DNA of 64,000 nucleotides from Curtobacterium sp. VKM Ac-2865 (GTDB lineage: Bacteria; Actinomycetota; Actinomycetes; Actinomycetales; Microbacteriaceae), in contig NZ_JADKRZ010000002.1 of the NCBI RefSeq assembly GCF_015350905.1, positions 124,001 to 188,000 of the forward strand, written 5' to 3'. Positions 1-50,805 of the stretch are shown piece after piece. The position numbers and the translations under genes are program-made. Under the pieces are notes generated by a model. It was not told the DNA's origin. It did no database searches and worked only from the letters and a program-made list of their open reading frames with translations. The first letter of the stretch is position 1. Every line of letters begins with the position of its first letter.

Positions 1-2
1 GC

Positions 3-68
3 ACCGTGACGGTCTCGGCGACGGGCGACGACGGACCACTCGGCAGTGCCACGGTGACGTACCGCTGA
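3..68 (+). CDS. C-terminal end of an unidentified protein (partial)
   Basis: An open frame enters from the left edge and stops at TGA 66-68. It encodes about 21 residues ending GSATVTYR, rich in Thr, Val, Ser and Gly. Alternating T/V residues suggest a beta-rich, possibly secreted C-terminus, but this is too short to assign. It is convergent with rpoC and the two are separated by a strong hairpin, which fits a gene end. The rest lies outside the window. Confidence 0.4.
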   Translation, partial: TVTVSATGDDGPLGSATVTYR

Positions 69-135
69 CCGGGACACCGCGCGCCGACGCCGGCTCAGAC
101 CCAGGAAGGGCGCGACCCAGGGAGGGCATGACGCA

Positions 136-173
136 GGAAGGGCCCCGCATCCAGGTGGATGCGGGGCCCTTCC
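136..173. terminator. Bidirectional intrinsic terminator between the left-edge gene and rpoC
   Basis: A perfect 17-bp inverted repeat (136-152 with 157-173, arm GGAAGGGGCC-like, rich in G/C) has a 4-nt loop AGGT. It lies between two convergent genes, 50 bp past the rpoC stop. There is no long T tract on either side, which is usual for high-GC actinobacterial terminators. Confidence 0.8.
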
Positions 174-221
174 GTCAGACCGACCGGCTCAGGTGGCTGG
201 TGTCCAGCCGCCTGCGCCTGC

Positions 222-4103
<3,882 letters not shown>

Positions 4104-4150
4104 TGTTCTTCTCTCTTGCTGAATTCGAAACGTTGTCGGGCGGGGCGGGA

Positions 4151-7639
<3,489 letters not shown>

Positions 7640-7888
7640 GGGTTTGACCTCCGGTAGGCCCCGTCGGGCCGATACTGACGAGCAGCATGTAGGTGAGTGG
7701 ATTGAACGCCGACGACCCCACGAGAACACGCGGTCATGCACCATCCGAGTGAAGGCGTTGCATGTGCGATGATCTGGGTGAGCGGGACCTGCCGACATGT
7801 GCGGGTCCGGCTGCACCAGGCGGAGTCCTTCGAGGACTTTCGGTCGACCGCAATATGACGACGCGGATGCCAGGGAGCGCGAACAGTC
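7640..7888 (-). promoter_or_regulatory. Untranslated leader of rpoBC
   Basis: No gene is convincing in the roughly 400 bp between rpoB and the next gene; the open frame running upstream of rpoB lacks family similarity. Counting from the predicted promoter, the rpoB mRNA would carry a leader of about 240 nt. A small hairpin (AGTCCT / AGGACT, near 7824-7838) and the palindrome CGGTCGACCG are the only structures seen. A leader this long could host growth-rate control, but I recognise no known RNA family. Confidence 0.45.
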
Positions 7889-7918
7889 ATCATATGCAGT
7901 GGTCACACGTGCTGTCCA
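7889..7918 (-). promoter_or_regulatory. Predicted rpoBC promoter
   Basis: On the minus strand TGGACA (7913-7918) is followed after 18 nt by TATGAT (7889-7894). Each hexamer differs at one position from the sigma70/SigA consensus. It is the best match upstream of rpoB. Confidence 0.55.
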
Positions 7919-7926
7919 GTCCTGGC

Positions 7927-7956
7927 TTGACCAAGATCGCCGGGGCCGTGTATAAG
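7927..7956 (+). promoter_or_regulatory. Candidate promoter divergent from rpoBC
   Basis: TTGACC (7927-7932), an 18-nt spacer and TATAAG (7951-7956) lie back to back with the predicted rpoB promoter. No + strand gene follows. A transcript would run antisense into the membrane-protein gene at 8037-8618. It may be chance or drive an antisense RNA. Confidence 0.25.
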
Positions 7957-8036
7957 CACGAGCACGTCGTCACTGCTCCCGCCGACTGCTCCCCCGCGAT
8001 CGCCGTCCCGCCGCGGTTCCGGAGACGACCAGCCGC

Positions 8037-45809: not shown

Positions 45810-47279
45810 GTGAGCGCCACGAAGACCACCGAACCGCCCCGGAACCGCGTCGCGTCCGGCCTCGACCGCTTCTTCTCCGTCACGAAGCGCGGATCGACCA
45901 TCCCCCGTGAGGTCCGCGGCGGCCTCGTCTCCTTCGTCACGATGGCGTACATCGTCATCCTCAACCCGCTGATCCTCGGTGGGTTCAGCGCCGACCAGGC
46001 CGCGAAGGACGTCACCGGCGGGTGGCTCGAGAACGCCCAGGTCGCCGCGGCCACCGGGCTCGTCGCCGGCATCATGACGATCGCGATGGGCATGATCGCG
46101 AACCTGCCGTTCGGCATCGCGGCCGGGCTCGGGATCAACTCGTTCCTCGCCGTGAGCGTCGTGCACCAGGTCACCTGGGCCGAGGCGATGGGGCTCGTCG
46201 TCATCAACGGCGTGATCATCGTCATCCTGGCGTTGACCGGGATCCGGACGATGATCTTCACGGCGGTGCCGGCGCAGCTCAAGGCCGCGATCACCGTCGG
46301 CATCGGCCTGTTCATCGCCTTCATCGGGCTGGTCGACTCCGGCTTCGTGCGCTCCTCGGGCCTGGCGTCGCCGCCGCTGCAGCTCGGCGAGGACGGCTCC
46401 GTCGGGGCGCTCCCCACGATCGTGTTCCTCATCGGCCTGGTGATCATCGGCACGCTCATGGCCCGCAAGGTCAAGGGCGCCCTGCTCATCGGCATCATCG
46501 CGACGACGGTCATCGCGATCATCCTGCAGGCCGTCTTCCACGTGCCGACCTCGGTCGACTCCAAGACCGGCTGGAACCTCAACGCCCCCGGGCTGCCGAG
46601 CGCGCTGTTCGCCCTGCCCGACCTGTCGCTCGTCGGCCACTTCGACTTCGGTGCCTTCAGCCGCATCGGCCCGCTCGCCGCGTCGATGCTCGTCTTCACG
46701 CTGGTCTTCACGAACTTCTTCGACGCCATGGGCACGATGACCGGGCTGGCGAAGGCCGCCGGGGTCGCGAAGCCCGACGGCACCTTCCCCCGTCTCCGCT
46801 CGGCGCTCGTCGTCGAGGGCGCCGGTGCGATCGCCGGCGGTGGCGCCTCGGTCTCGTCGAACACCGTCTTCATCGACTCCGCCGCCGGCATCGGCGAGGG
46901 CGCCCGCACGGGCATGGCCTCCGTCGTGACCGGTCTGCTGTTCCTGGCCTCGATGTTCCTGACGCCACTGACGCAGGTCGTCCCGCTCGAGGTCGCAGCC
47001 GCCGGGCTCGTCGTCGTCGGTGCGCTCATGGTCGCGCAGGTGAAGGACATCGAGTGGAGCGACTTCGGGTCGGCGCTGCCGGCGTTCCTGACGATCGTCG
47101 TGATGCCGCTGACCTACTCGATCGCGAACGGCATCGGCGTGGGCTTCATCAGCTGGGTGCTCATCAAGGCGCTGTCCGGCCGCGGCCGCGAGGTCTCCTG
47201 GCTGCTCTACGTCGTCGCCGCTGGCTTCCTGCTGTACTTCGCGCGCGGGCCGCTGGAGTCGGTGCTCGGGGTCGGCTGA
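45810..47279 (+). CDS. NCS2-family purine permease (AzgA-like)
   Basis: 489 aa, about 13 helices. Family motifs: TIPREVRGGLVSFVTMAYI, the helix-3 ANLPFGIAAGLGINSFLA, FDAMGTMTGLAKAAG and GGASVSSNTVFIDSAAG. Fits the adenine/guanine/hypoxanthine proton symporters. TAAACT ends 6 nt before GTG 45810, a leaderless start. It is divergent from the folE operon, which uses the purine nucleotide GTP. Its stop codon lies in one copy of a 22-bp direct repeat. Confidence 0.93.
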   Translation: MSATKTTEPPRNRVASGLDRFFSVTKRGSTIPREVRGGLVSFVTMAYIVILNPLILGGFSADQAAKDVTGGWLENAQVAAATGLVAGIMTIAMGMIANLPFGIAAGLGINSFLAVSVVHQVTWAEAMGLVVINGVIIVILALTGIRTMIFTAVPAQLKAAITVGIGLFIAFIGLVDSGFVRSSGLASPPLQLGEDGSVGALPTIVFLIGLVIIGTLMARKVKGALLIGIIATTVIAIILQAVFHVPTSVDSKTGWNLNAPGLPSALFALPDLSLVGHFDFGAFSRIGPLAASMLVFTLVFTNFFDAMGTMTGLAKAAGVAKPDGTFPRLRSALVVEGAGAIAGGGASVSSNTVFIDSAAGIGEGARTGMASVVTGLLFLASMFLTPLTQVVPLEVAAAGLVVVGALMVAQVKDIEWSDFGSALPAFLTIVVMPLTYSIANGIGVGFISWVLIKALSGRGREVSWLLYVVAAGFLLYFARGPLESVLGVG

Positions 47280-47393
47280 CGCCGAGCGGCCGGCGTCGAT
47301 CGGGTTCGCACAACCAGAACCGGCTCGCGCCACGGACTTCCGTGGTGCGAGCCGGTTTCGCTTGTGCGGCATCGGCTGACGCCGAGCGGCCGG
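47272..47393. repeat. Palindromic element flanked by 22-bp direct repeats
   Basis: A 62-bp symmetric element (47307-47368) has outer arms CGCACAA / TTGTGCG, 4-nt unpaired bulges, and a 19-bp inner stem (47318-47336 with 47339-47357, one G-T pair) with loop CT. It lies between two exact 22-bp direct repeats (47272-47293 and 47372-47393, offset exactly 100 bp), the first including the permease stop codon. The core CTCGCGCCAC matches the element at 35030-35089. It may also terminate the convergent genes. Confidence 0.8.
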
Positions 47394-47408
47394 ACGGGAA
47401 GCCCGGGG

Positions 47409-47861
47409 CTACTCCGGCAGATCGGCCGGCGTCGCCTCGTGGTGGCGCTGGGCGCGCGTGCGCCGGTCCTCCTTCATGCCCGCCTCGAGCAGGTGGCGTC
47501 GGCCCCCGGCGAGGTCGTCCCGCGCCGTGCGCTCCAGGTCCTTGGCGAGCGCGTAGTACCCGTCGTCGTAGTCCTCGACGATCTGGAACGTCCACCGGCC
47601 CTCGATGACGTTCCGGCCGATCAGCTCCGTGTCGACGCGGTCGGCGAGCTCGGTGTGCCCGGCCTTCCGGAGCTGCTCGACGGCATCGCCGAAGCCGAGG
47701 TCCGCCTTGCCCGTCAGGCGGTGGAACCCGTAGAGGTAGCCGCGAGCGTGCTCGAGCACCTCGAGTGCTGCGGAGAGCGCCCCGAGGGCCTCGACGGTCT
47801 CCTCGGACACCCCCTCTGGCACCTGGTGGGCGGCGTCTGGTCCCTGTCCGTCGTTCGTCAT
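47409..47861 (-). CDS. Conserved actinobacterial protein of unknown function
   Basis: 150 aa, soluble, mostly helical, rich in Asp/Glu/Arg/His (FHRLTGKADLGFGDAVEQLR, then YDDGYYALAKDLERTARDD). No signal peptide or known domain. It lies convergent with the purine permease, with the palindromic element between them. ATG at 47861 has no obvious ribosome-binding site; the reading frame and codon bias support it as real. Confidence 0.7.
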   Translation of the reverse strand: MTNDGQGPDAAHQVPEGVSEETVEALGALSAALEVLEHARGYLYGFHRLTGKADLGFGDAVEQLRKAGHTELADRVDTELIGRNVIEGRWTFQIVEDYDDGYYALAKDLERTARDDLAGGRRHLLEAGMKEDRRTRAQRHHEATPADLPE

Positions 47862-47914
47862 GCCACCCCGTCTACACGGGCAGTCCCGGAACCGCTCCCG
47901 GGATCCGACGGCGG

Positions 47915-47962
47915 TTGCAGGACCCCCGACCGACGCCTACCATTCGAACACACGTTCGAATG
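47915..47962 (+). promoter_or_regulatory. LexA (SOS) box over a promoter
   Basis: TTGCAG (47915-47920), a 17-nt spacer and TACCAT (47938-47943) form the promoter. CATTCGAAC-ACAC-GTTCGAATG (47941-47962) is a perfect palindrome whose core TCGAAC-N4-GTTCGA equals the actinobacterial/Bacillus LexA consensus. It overlaps the -10 box and the transcription start, so strong LexA repression is expected. AGGAGG follows at 47964-47969. Confidence 0.85.
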
Positions 47963-47973
47963 AGGAGGACCCG

Positions 47974-48237
47974 ATGATCGTCGTCGACGCAGCCACCACG
48001 GTCTGGTGGACCCAGGGGATGCCGGTGCGCATCGTGTGGCAGGGACGCCGCTGGCGGGTGTCCGACGTGCCGACGCGCCTCACCGTGACCCCGTCCGACC
48101 TGCCCACCGCCATCACGCACGCTCCCGAACGGACTGCCGGCTGGCGCTTCCAGGTCACCGCGGAGGACGGCGAGACCCTGGTGGTCGACATCGTGCCGGA
48201 GGGTGGCGGGTGGACCGTCGCGCGGACGTGGTCGTGA
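47974..48237 (+). CDS. DUF6504-like protein, LexA-controlled
   Basis: 87 aa, beta-rich, with VRIVWQGRRWRVSDVPTRL and GWRFQVTAEDG. I recognise the DUF6504 pattern, a small protein often found beside imuA/imuB/dnaE2 mutasome genes in Actinobacteria. Here it stands alone. The perfect LexA box overlapping its promoter places it in the SOS response. AGGAGG lies 4 nt before the ATG. How it acts in damage tolerance is unknown. Confidence 0.75.
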   Translation: MIVVDAATTVWWTQGMPVRIVWQGRRWRVSDVPTRLTVTPSDLPTAITHAPERTAGWRFQVTAEDGETLVVDIVPEGGGWTVARTWS

Positions 48238-48312
48238 CGGCGATTCGGGGCACCATCGTCATGGAGATCTCCTTCGCGACCTATCCATCTTCTTGATAAT
48301 GTCATCCACCAA

Positions 48313-48897
48313 ATGGTCAAGTCGATCTCGCGGTTGTCACCGCTGTTCCGTTCCGACGCGCAAGGAGAGATCCTCGCGCGGGTGTTCCTGGACGGCGGGG
48401 CGCGATACTCCACGAGCGACCTCGCGCGACTCACCAACGTGCCGTACGCGACGGCGCACCGTGAGGTGCAACGCCTCGTCGAGACCAACCTCGTGATGAC
48501 CGAGCACGTCGGTCGATCGGTCCTCGTCCGCGCGAACCCCGACGACCCGGCGTTCCTTCCACTCGTGGAACTGCTGCAGCTCAGCTTCGGCCCGACCGTG
48601 GTGCTGGGTCGCCTGCTCAGTGGGGTCCCCGACCTGGAAGAGGCGTACGTCTACGGGTCCTGGGCAGCGCGACGACTCGGAGAAGGCGGTTCGCCACCCG
48701 GTGACATCGACGTCCTCGTCGTCGGGAGGCCCGATCGCAGCCTCCTGTTCGACACCGCTGATGCCGCCTCGAAGGAGCTGCACCGCGACGTCAGCATCCG
48801 TGCGACGTCTCGCGAGACGTGGGAGCGGGCCGATGACCCGTTCCTCAGGACCGTTCGCCAGCGTCCGCTGGTACCGATCACGATGGGAGGGAAGTAG
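48313..48897 (+). CDS. HTH-fused minimal nucleotidyltransferase (putative antitoxin)
   Basis: 194 aa. Residues 15-75 form a winged helix (YSTSDLARLTNVPYATAHRE). Residues 105-165 form a minimal nucleotidyltransferase with GS (115-116) and DID (131-133), and an Asp near 159. In MNT/HEPN modules the MNT partner AMPylates the HEPN toxin on a Tyr to neutralise it (type VII). Fused HTH would let it also repress its own promoter. The next gene, a HEPN protein, starts at the base after its stop codon. The upstream space is AT-rich (48280-48312). Confidence 0.82.
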   Translation: MVKSISRLSPLFRSDAQGEILARVFLDGGARYSTSDLARLTNVPYATAHREVQRLVETNLVMTEHVGRSVLVRANPDDPAFLPLVELLQLSFGPTVVLGRLLSGVPDLEEAYVYGSWAARRLGEGGSPPGDIDVLVVGRPDRSLLFDTADAASKELHRDVSIRATSRETWERADDPFLRTVRQRPLVPITMGGK

Positions 48898-49371
48898 GTG
48901 GCACCGAACGTGTGGGCCCTCGGTCGAGCCGAGGTTGAACAGGCACTGCGCAACGGCACACTGACTCGGGTCGACGCATCGCGAGACCTCGCAGAAGCAA
49001 TGCTCGAACAGGCCAGAGGGGCGTTCTCCGCAGCCGAGATGGTGACCGACGTCAGCGTCGAGAGTGCCTTCAACCTGTTGTACGACGCCGCGCGACTGGC
49101 GCTGTCAGCGGTACTGGTCAACCAGGGCTTGAAGACCCGGGGAGAAGGCGCTCACGCGGCGGTCGTCGACCTGGTCATCGCCCAGACCGAACCTCCCCGG
49201 CAGGAGGCCCTCCGCGCGGTCAAGTGGATGCGCAGTGTGCGGAACGACACCCAGTACCCGAACCCGGACCGGCCGGTTGCATCACGAGACGACTTCGATG
49301 ACGCCGTTCGCCATGTCCCGACCGTCATCGAGCGAGCTGGGATGCTCGTCCAGCACATGCCGCCGTTCTGA
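48898..49371 (+). CDS. HEPN-domain protein (putative toxin)
   Basis: 157 aa, all-helical, with the HEPN core SAFNLLYDAARLALSAVLV and the RNA-cleaving motif region SVRNDTQYP (Arg115, Asn116, Tyr120), where canonical HEPN toxins have R-x4-6-H. Tyr replaces His, which may change or weaken RNase activity or serve as an AMPylation target. GTG start immediately follows the antitoxin stop (TAGGTG), with GGGAGG upstream, so the pair is tightly coupled. Confidence 0.78.
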   Translation: MAPNVWALGRAEVEQALRNGTLTRVDASRDLAEAMLEQARGAFSAAEMVTDVSVESAFNLLYDAARLALSAVLVNQGLKTRGEGAHAAVVDLVIAQTEPPRQEALRAVKWMRSVRNDTQYPNPDRPVASRDDFDDAVRHVPTVIERAGMLVQHMPPF

Positions 49372-49473
49372 GACCGTTTCCACGCGTCGATCCACCCCGC
49401 TGGCCGATCCAGCTCCGTGAACACGGCGATGCCGACGTCGGTCCCTGAGCCTCGGACGCGCTACCGTCACGAC

Positions 49474-49989
49474 ATGACCAGGTGGATCGCCCTGCTGCGC
49501 GGGGTGAACGTGAACGGCATCACGATCCGATCTGCCGACCTCCGGACGCTGTTCGAGGAGCGCGGACACACAGATGTCCGCACTGTGCTGGCGTCGGGCA
49601 ACGTCGTGTTCTCGTCCGCGATGCCCGCGCCCGAACTCAAGGCCGACGTCGAGCAGGCGCTCCGCGACCGCTTCGGGTACGACGCCTGGATCGTGCTCGT
49701 CCCGCACGACGCCCTCGCCGCACTCGTCGACACCTTCCCCTTCGAGTCGTCCGCCGACCGACACGACTACGTCCTCTTCGGGTCCGACGACGCCGCACTG
49801 GACGACCTGCTTGCCGACCTCGAACTCGACGACACGGTGGAGCGGGTCGCGCGCGGCGACGGTGTCGTCTACTGGTCGTGCCCGAAGGGGTCGAGCACGG
49901 ACAGCGTTTTCGCGAAGCGGGCCAGCGCCGCACGCTTCAAGCGCACGACGACGACCCGCAACACGAACACCCTGCGCAAGCTCCTCTGA
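49474..49989 (+). CDS. DUF1697 protein
   Basis: 171 aa. The N-terminus WIALLRGVNVNGITIRSADL and later TVLASGNVVFSS are DUF1697 hallmarks. C-terminal basic tail (RFKRTTTTRNTNTLRKLL) is typical. Function is unknown; it is found in many actinobacterial genomes. TACCGT ends 6 nt before the ATG. It is convergent with the RelE-like gene, only 3 bp apart. Confidence 0.9.
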   Translation: MTRWIALLRGVNVNGITIRSADLRTLFEERGHTDVRTVLASGNVVFSSAMPAPELKADVEQALRDRFGYDAWIVLVPHDALAALVDTFPFESSADRHDYVLFGSDDAALDDLLADLELDDTVERVARGDGVVYWSCPKGSSTDSVFAKRASAARFKRTTTTRNTNTLRKLL

Positions 49990-49992
49990 CGA

Positions 49993-50337
49993 TCACTTCG
50001 TCTCGTTGGGGTGGTGCGTGTGCACCGCGATGACCTGCACGACCCGCGCTTCTTCATCCACGGTGAACCAGATCCGGGCACCCCGCTTGAGTTCGTACTG
50101 ACGGCGGACCCATTCGCGCCCTGAGTGCACGACGACGCCGAGTTCCCCGCGGAGTGCGTGGCAGGCGAGGTCTTCAGTCAGCGGATCCGTCGTGAGCCGC
50201 TCCCACGCGCCGACGACGGCATTGCGCTGCGTCGCCAGGACGTCTCGCCACCCCTGCTCGGCACCACGCGTGGCGAGGACGATCGTGTACTCCGTGGTGC
50301 GGACCGGCCGCGCCACGCCGGTTCGGCGCGCGGCCAT
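49993..50337 (-). CDS. RelE/ParE-like toxin of a type II module
   Basis: 114 aa, small basic protein. Central pattern WERLTTDPLTED, CHALRGELG and WVRRQYELKRGARIWFTVDE with a late HTHHPNETK fits the RelE/ParE fold (interferase or gyrase inhibitor). The catalytic residues are not certain by eye. Its ATG lies 3 bp after the stop of a larger Phd-like gene; the two form an operon under a palindromic operator. Confidence 0.72.
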   Translation of the reverse strand: MAARRTGVARPVRTTEYTIVLATRGAEQGWRDVLATQRNAVVGAWERLTTDPLTEDLACHALRGELGVVVHSGREWVRRQYELKRGARIWFTVDEEARVVQVIAVHTHHPNETK

Positions 50338-50340
50338 CGG

Positions 50341-50805
50341 TCACGGCTTCTCAGCGATGACCGGCGGGTCGAGCAGGTCCGGCTCCGAGGTGTCCCAGCC
50401 GGCGGCGATCGCCTCGGCCGAGTTGCGCCAGGCCTGCATCTCCAGCAGCAGCCTGCGGGGCTGCCGGAGCGAGAAGGACCCGCGAGCCACCTCGACGATC
50501 TCCGTGGCGAACCGCTGCTGGTCCGCACGGCTCAGCAGCTTCAACCAGGGATACGGGATCGCCAGCCGGTCGTGGAGCGGCAGCGACTCGTTGACGGTGA
50601 CCGCGGCGATGAGCTGCGCAGCGATGTCGAGGACGGCCTCGTCGTCGTCGGACCGCTCCTTCGTCGTCAGGACGAGCGGAGCACCGTCGCGTCGAGTGAC
50701 CTCGAGTGGCTCCTGTTCCGCGGCGGCGAACACGTCTTTCGCGTGGCGCGACAGGTCGGACGACTGCACGGAGCGTCGGCGGCGGACGGGGGCGAGGAGC
50801 GTCAT
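50341..50805 (-). CDS. Phd/YefM-like antitoxin with a long C-terminal extension
   Basis: 154 aa. The first 65 residues resemble Phd/YefM antitoxins (SDLSRHAKDVFAAAEQEP, LEVTRRDGAPLVLTTK). About 90 more residues follow, helical and larger than usual for Phd, ending AIAAGWDTSEPDLLDPP. This could be a toxin-binding region. Promoter and operator: TACGGT ends 6 nt before the ATG and an 18-bp perfect palindrome abuts it. The adjacent RelE-like gene is downstream. Confidence 0.72.
   Translation of the reverse strand: MTLLAPVRRRRSVQSSDLSRHAKDVFAAAEQEPLEVTRRDGAPLVLTTKERSDDDEAVLDIAAQLIAAVTVNESLPLHDRLAIPYPWLKLLSRADQQRFATEIVEVARGSFSLRQPRRLLLEMQAWRNSAEAIAAGWDTSEPDLLDPPVIAEKP

Follow-up and report, generated by a model that had tools for sequence, protein, structure and literature searches.

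A lone gene under a perfect LexA-type box in Curtobacterium encodes a distant DUF6504 relative and candidate accessory of the DnaE2 mutasome

A gene for a protein of 87 amino acids (P0001) stands on its own in the genome of Curtobacterium sp. VKM Ac-2865, directly behind a perfect LexA-type box. Judged from the conservation of that box, the gene is very likely under LexA control, and its product is, according to sequence intermediates and profile comparisons, a divergent member of the DUF6504 superfamily (PF20114), linked to it by distant homology. P0001 belongs to a subfamily that is missed by existing models, is mostly stand-alone and occurs in genomes that nearly always encode ImuB (119/133). 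From the company that these genes keep, P0001 would probably serve as a detached, LexA-controlled and trans-acting accessory of the DnaE2 mutasome, resembling the stand-alone ImuB-C proteins.

The LexA box and its genomic setting

The elements surrounding the start of the gene are collected in Table 1. A sequence-only reading of this DNA had reported an exact TCGAAC-N4-GTTCGA motif upstream of the small gene, and the motif is indeed present: TCGAACACACGTTCGA is the sole exact copy in the window, that is, the whole 64-kb stretch of DNA analysed, in which seven sites with two mismatches or fewer are found versus a mean of 3.65 after shuffling. The same reading described a 22-bp perfect palindrome. 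The two arms match perfectly, but the ACAC between them lacks self-complementarity, and the structure is better described as 18 paired positions and a four-base spacer. The proposed overlap of the box with a −10 element fared less well: TACCAT is readable by eye and overlaps the repeat, but a consensus promoter scan of positions 47800–48400 returned no sigma-70-like site. RNA family searches found none within 46000–50500.

Table 1. Elements of the lone gene and its start region (positions within the window)
Feature	Position	Strand	Remarks
LexA-type box TCGAAC-ACAC-GTTCGA, TCGAACACACGTTCGA	47944-47959		exact match, 14 bp before ATG
Inverted repeat CATTCGAAC-ACAC-GTTCGAATG	47941-47962		perfect 9+9 bp arms, 4-base spacer (direct reading)
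Possible promoter, TTGCAG / 17-bp spacer / TACCAT	47915-47920 / 47938-47943	+	by-eye reading, weak
Ribosome-binding site AGGAGG	47963-47968	+	5 bases 5' of ATG (sequence)
Gene for P0001 (87-aa DUF6504-like protein)	47974-48237	+	ATG 47974, stop at 48237

Across the assembly (3.73 Mb in 15 contigs) six perfect boxes were identified, when base composition leads one to expect approximately 0.06–0.2 per genome by chance; allowing one mismatch, the number rises to 51, versus six for the same pattern read backwards. One perfect box is that of the P0001 gene. Two more, 52 bp apart, precede a gene in the imuA' position that is followed by imuB and dnaE2, a fourth lies before recA (named from its sequence), a fifth before a gene which we take to be radical-SAM-like, and the sixth 15 bp before a reading frame of 107 amino acids. 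The ImuB and DnaE2 proteins of this genome contain the expected Pfam domains; the gene before imuB matches no Pfam family and is presumed to be imuA' on account of its position. A LexA-like gene with a one-mismatch box upstream is located near recA, and its motif identifies it as what is presumably the usual actinobacterial kind. The genome harbours an intact imuA'-imuB-dnaE2 mutasome of the mycobacterial type under two perfect boxes. The lone gene had been said to be separate from it, and this is borne out: P0001 is encoded on contig C8 under a box of its own, whereas the mutasome operon is situated on C9.

A gene for a 150-amino-acid protein (47409–47861, minus strand) is transcribed divergently from the P0001 gene and starts 83 bp from the box. 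It has no match in Pfam or NCBIfam and, among the loci compared, is seen again only in a single genome, G214, of the same genus. The palindromic box could act on this gene too.

Conservation of the box

A search with P0001 (E 0.001) revealed homologues at 145 places in 133 of 299 Microbacteriaceae genomes. For all of them the best box was sought between −200 and +20 of the matched start: 85 homologues have a perfect box, 47 a box with one mismatch, and the remaining 13 two (eight cases), three (three cases), four (one case) or five mismatches (one case). A box with at most one mismatch is thus found in 132 of the 145, and none of five permuted control palindromes reached this level in any of the 145; two of the controls attained two mismatches, in four and two cases, respectively. 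As the homologues are only approximately 40% identical to P0001, the box has outlasted much of the protein sequence. This retention, set against the empty controls, makes LexA control of the gene very likely, in line with the earlier proposal, and the recA and imuA'-imuB-dnaE2 genes of the same genome carry perfect boxes as well. A class-wide search matched 13 of 296 genomes, seven of which are Microbacteriaceae, so that the subfamily appears to be mainly one of this family.

The comparison of 20 other loci disclosed neighbours common only to close relatives, the shared element being the P0001-family gene itself. Downstream of the gene (48313–49371) lie a winged-helix protein with a weak nucleotidyltransferase match and a HEPN-domain protein (PF05168, 8.7e-8), a pair that resembles nucleotidyltransferase-HEPN toxin-antitoxin pairs. 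These genes were considered as co-regulated operon partners and rejected: they start 75 bp past the stop codon and have no match in the 20 other loci, including that of a 78% orthologue (L049).

Two plasmids carry a copy of the family, annotated as 'hypothetical protein'. On the Gryllotalpicola plasmid NZ_CP032625.1 (L248:3849-5234) a LexA box with one mismatch separates the gene from two divergently oriented neighbours, a hypothetical gene and one annotated as encoding an SOS response-associated peptidase. Phage records contained no P0001-family copy, and scans of viral contigs with P0001 and two alignments yielded no relative.

A divergent branch of the DUF6504 superfamily

The label 'DUF6504-like' that had been attached to the gene is upheld as remote homology, but not by a direct match of the protein itself. 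P0001 has no match in Pfam or NCBIfam at E values up to 10 and accordingly falls short of the curated PF20114 cut-off of 24.2 bits; PF20114 in turn finds nothing in this genome at E 0.001, and matches 44 of 199 Microbacteriaceae genomes. The connection is made by intermediates: eight places were found by both the P0001 and the PF20114 searches, six of them above the Pfam cut-off, and proteins such as that of G178 combine a start and end of the P0001 type with the W...WW middle segment of DUF6504. Profile–profile comparison of the subfamily (115 rows, with 25 intermediate-like rows and rows under 70 residues left out) with classical DUF6504 (16 rows, with L087 and three truncated loci left out) gave 97.6% (E 3.2e-12) over 87 columns, versus 0.6% for a reversed control, and 97.7% after the addition of 30 phylum-wide DUF6504 rows. 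P0001 shares with DUF6504 its size and the order of its motifs; it differs from the classical members in lacking the W...WW segment that the intermediates keep, and in the solitary position of its gene.

Many classical DUF6504 proteins of Microbacteriaceae (L071, L072, L078, L085 and others) end in [DE]xxLF(A), which recalls what we take to be a beta-clamp-binding tail; P0001 has no such tail. A literature search found no mention of DUF6504 and no work on the LexA/SOS box in Microbacteriaceae.

Association with SOS polymerases

Classical DUF6504 genes are themselves preceded by boxes with at most one mismatch in 14 of 17 Microbacteriaceae loci and in 26 of 30 loci across the phylum, a contig-end locus (L275) being counted as a miss in the phylum figures. 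A DnaE2 homologue lies within the same 3-kb locus in 13 of 20 and 23 of 30 cases, respectively. The sequence-only reading had placed DUF6504 proteins usually in imuA-imuB-dnaE2 operons. This is not the rule in Microbacteriaceae: among the 199 genomes, 34 of the 44 positive for PF20114 have no ImuB match, and in these the DUF6504 gene is often immediately followed by a different DnaE gene. Some copies are located just upstream of imuA'-imuB-dnaE2, including two from the same genus.

For the P0001 subfamily, ImuB is detected in all but 14 of the 133 positive genomes, absence meaning no match at E 1e-20, a threshold at which divergent or fragmented ImuB could be missed; the 14 all possess a second DnaE-type gene, and G124 is fragmented and carries a piece of DnaE2 at 74%. 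Conversely, 92 of 211 ImuB-positive genomes have no detectable P0001 homologue, which indicates that the homologue is not an obligate part of the mutasome. A Fisher test on these genome counts, which ignores kinship, gives odds of 6.8 and a p value of 6e-11. Taken together, the company of DUF6504 and of the P0001 subfamily indicates that the superfamily accompanies SOS DnaE genes whether or not ImuB is present, and that the subfamily is neither required by ImuB nor strictly tied to it.

Copies beside the mutasome

At least eight genomes (G295, G163, G178, G055, G125, G226, G028 and G103) harbour a homologue 0.9–4 kb upstream of imuB on the same strand, and five of these copies were inspected in detail. 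In G295 and G163, which belong to the same genus as the strain studied here, the homologue directly precedes imuA' of imuA'-imuB-dnaE2 and is flanked by boxes on both sides. In G178, G028 and G103 approximately 1–3 kb and a further box separate the homologue from imuA'. In another genome, G003, a DnaE gene follows immediately after the homologue.

Two boxes precede imuA' in each of the seven genus members. Five, among them the present genome, have no gene in the interval, and the boxes are 52–54 bp apart; in G295 and G163 the gene is accommodated between them and the spacing is 412 and 373 bp. The imuA'-side copy occurs by itself in these two genomes, the stand-alone copy by itself in G000 (the present genome), G214, G257 and G031, and neither in G105. 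Such mutually exclusive arrangements, in a genus sample of only seven genomes, suggest functional replacement. Simple relocation of the mutasome-operon copy was rejected as the origin of the lone gene: in a tree of 80 of the 145 rows, chosen by hand and spanning 91 columns, with many forks unresolved, the G295 and G163 copies are joined with G003 (99/91), apart from the stand-alone copies found in the genus, and P0001 is placed with other stand-alone copies. A better fit than relocation is that one copy was lost and another gained.

Relation to ImuB-C and predicted structure

The ImuB-C superfamily is described in the available text of Aravind 2013 (PMC3765255) as forming the end of ImuB and also existing as free-standing proteins, encoded next to many SOS repair genes that include those for Ku/ligase, photolyase and SRAP; DNA binding is suggested. 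Timinskas and Venclovas 2019 (PMC6511836) report, in the portion available, operons in which stand-alone ImuB-C accompanies Y-family polymerases and/or DnaE2 in genomes devoid of imuA. A 2026 study (PMC12926913), again in its available part, includes DnaE2-[ImuB-C] systems of actinobacteria in its listing; its model of ImuB-C is a beta-barrel in contact with the PHP domain of DnaE2 and with ImuA. In none of the available text of these three papers and of a Deinococcus review (PMC8072749) is DUF6504 named.

As portrayed in that text, stand-alone ImuB-C proteins are similar to P0001 and DUF6504 in being small, beta-rich, SOS-linked and encoded beside DnaE2 or Y-family genes. Since the DUF6504-DnaE loci have the same layout as the actinobacterial DnaE2-[ImuB-C] systems, as far as PMC12926913 describes them in its available part, we infer by analogy that DUF6504 may be the stand-alone ImuB-C of actinobacteria. 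There is also a difference: the systems in the available part of PMC6511836 are without imuA, whereas the lone-gene genomes examined here mostly encode ImuB.

Direct homology to the ImuB C-terminal domain was not established. In profile–profile comparison with that domain (four of 30 ImuB loci, which lack the motif, left out) the subfamily reached 30.6% over 29 columns and DUF6504 0.4–2.7%, and neither HMM matched any of 32 ImuB frames at E values up to 1. A four-sequence model of P0001 displays seven beta strands (pLDDT 76.2, pTM 0.63), while a single-sequence model is poor (pLDDT 46.9). Foldseek with the four-sequence model found no match at E 0.001 in the PDB or among viral models, the best hit in a fold comparison of this model (VIA Z 5.6) is not significant, and a search of P0001 against PDB sequences gave no match.

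Proposed role and alternative explanations

The following scheme is put forward on the basis of gene company. The P0001 gene would form a LexA-repressed single-gene SOS unit, in which LexA bound to the box would block the transcription start and the ribosome-binding region. Upon DNA damage, RecA-stimulated self-cleavage of LexA would release the gene together with recA and imuA'-imuB-dnaE2. The product, a small and predominantly beta protein of a superfamily encoded beside actinobacterial SOS DnaE polymerases, would then work in trans: it may bind DnaE2, ImuA'/ImuB or damaged DNA and thereby adjust the assembly or recruitment of the mutasome. The gene had earlier been regarded as a possible independent SOS effector; its genetic links point instead to a putative accessory of SOS DnaE polymerases. 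A bolder and distinctly tentative extension is that Microbacteriaceae possess a detachable DUF6504/ImuB-C-like regulatory subunit with its own LexA promoter, which sets mutagenic synthesis in trans beside a complete ImuA'-ImuB-DnaE2 and may act with a second LexA-boxed small protein.

The most serious competitor, to which we assign roughly one chance in four, is that P0001 acts in the SOS response in a way that has nothing to do with DnaE2, for instance as a checkpoint or DNA-end factor whose only tie to the polymerase is the LexA regulon. Most copies are solitary, and their neighbours are conserved among close relatives only; 14 positive genomes are without ImuB; one plasmid copy is divergent from the annotated SOS-response-associated peptidase gene; and in five genomes and one plasmid the gene adjoins the other LexA-boxed small gene. 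Stand-alone ImuB-C, too, is encoded beside end-joining and other repair genes in the available text of PMC3765255. Against this, DnaE or imuA'-imuB-dnaE2 genes are found together with the nearest intermediates and with classical DUF6504 genes, and it is this clustering that favours an accessory of the polymerase. A further alternative, which is improbable, casts the protein as a negative regulator: coexistence with ImuB in most positive genomes under separate LexA control is compatible with a split, free domain that could compete with ImuB for DnaE2 or ImuA' and damp mutagenesis. The lack of an established sequence link to the ImuB C-terminal domain speaks against it, as does the presence of the same superfamily with DnaE in ImuB-less genomes, where competition with ImuB cannot be the role. 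That the box is fortuitous and the gene outside LexA control is very improbable: the promoter scan is the one result in its favour, but a chance site would hardly be kept in 132 of 145 homologues, when the controls are kept in none, or be perfect in a genome with just six such sites.

The solitary position of the P0001 gene is of practical value, as the gene can be deleted without touching imuA', imuB or dnaE2 and its effect on SOS mutagenesis is directly measurable. At the thresholds used, neither Pfam nor NCBIfam contains this unnamed gene family, which its boxes place in the likely SOS regulon of the large family Microbacteriaceae. Furthermore, a free-standing relative that has its own control and coexists with a complete mutasome bears on the role of stand-alone ImuB-C, which is called unclear in the available text of the Deinococcus review (PMC8072749).

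A second LexA-boxed gene and other features

The 107-amino-acid reading frame mentioned above (L047:3389-3712, contig C11) begins 15 bp after the perfect LexA box at 161364–161379 of that contig. Relatives are present in 44 of 199 Microbacteriaceae genomes, and a box with at most one mismatch was found within 300 bp upstream in 13 of the 19 loci tested. In G041, G113, G178, G173 and G009, and on a Microbacterium hominis plasmid, less than 1 kb separates this gene from a P0001-family gene, the two being divergent in some cases; it is possible that its product is a partner of the P0001 family.

The first 8 kb of the window (1–8000) has a GC content of 0.66–0.67, compared with 0.69–0.74 elsewhere, and is perhaps a recently acquired stretch.
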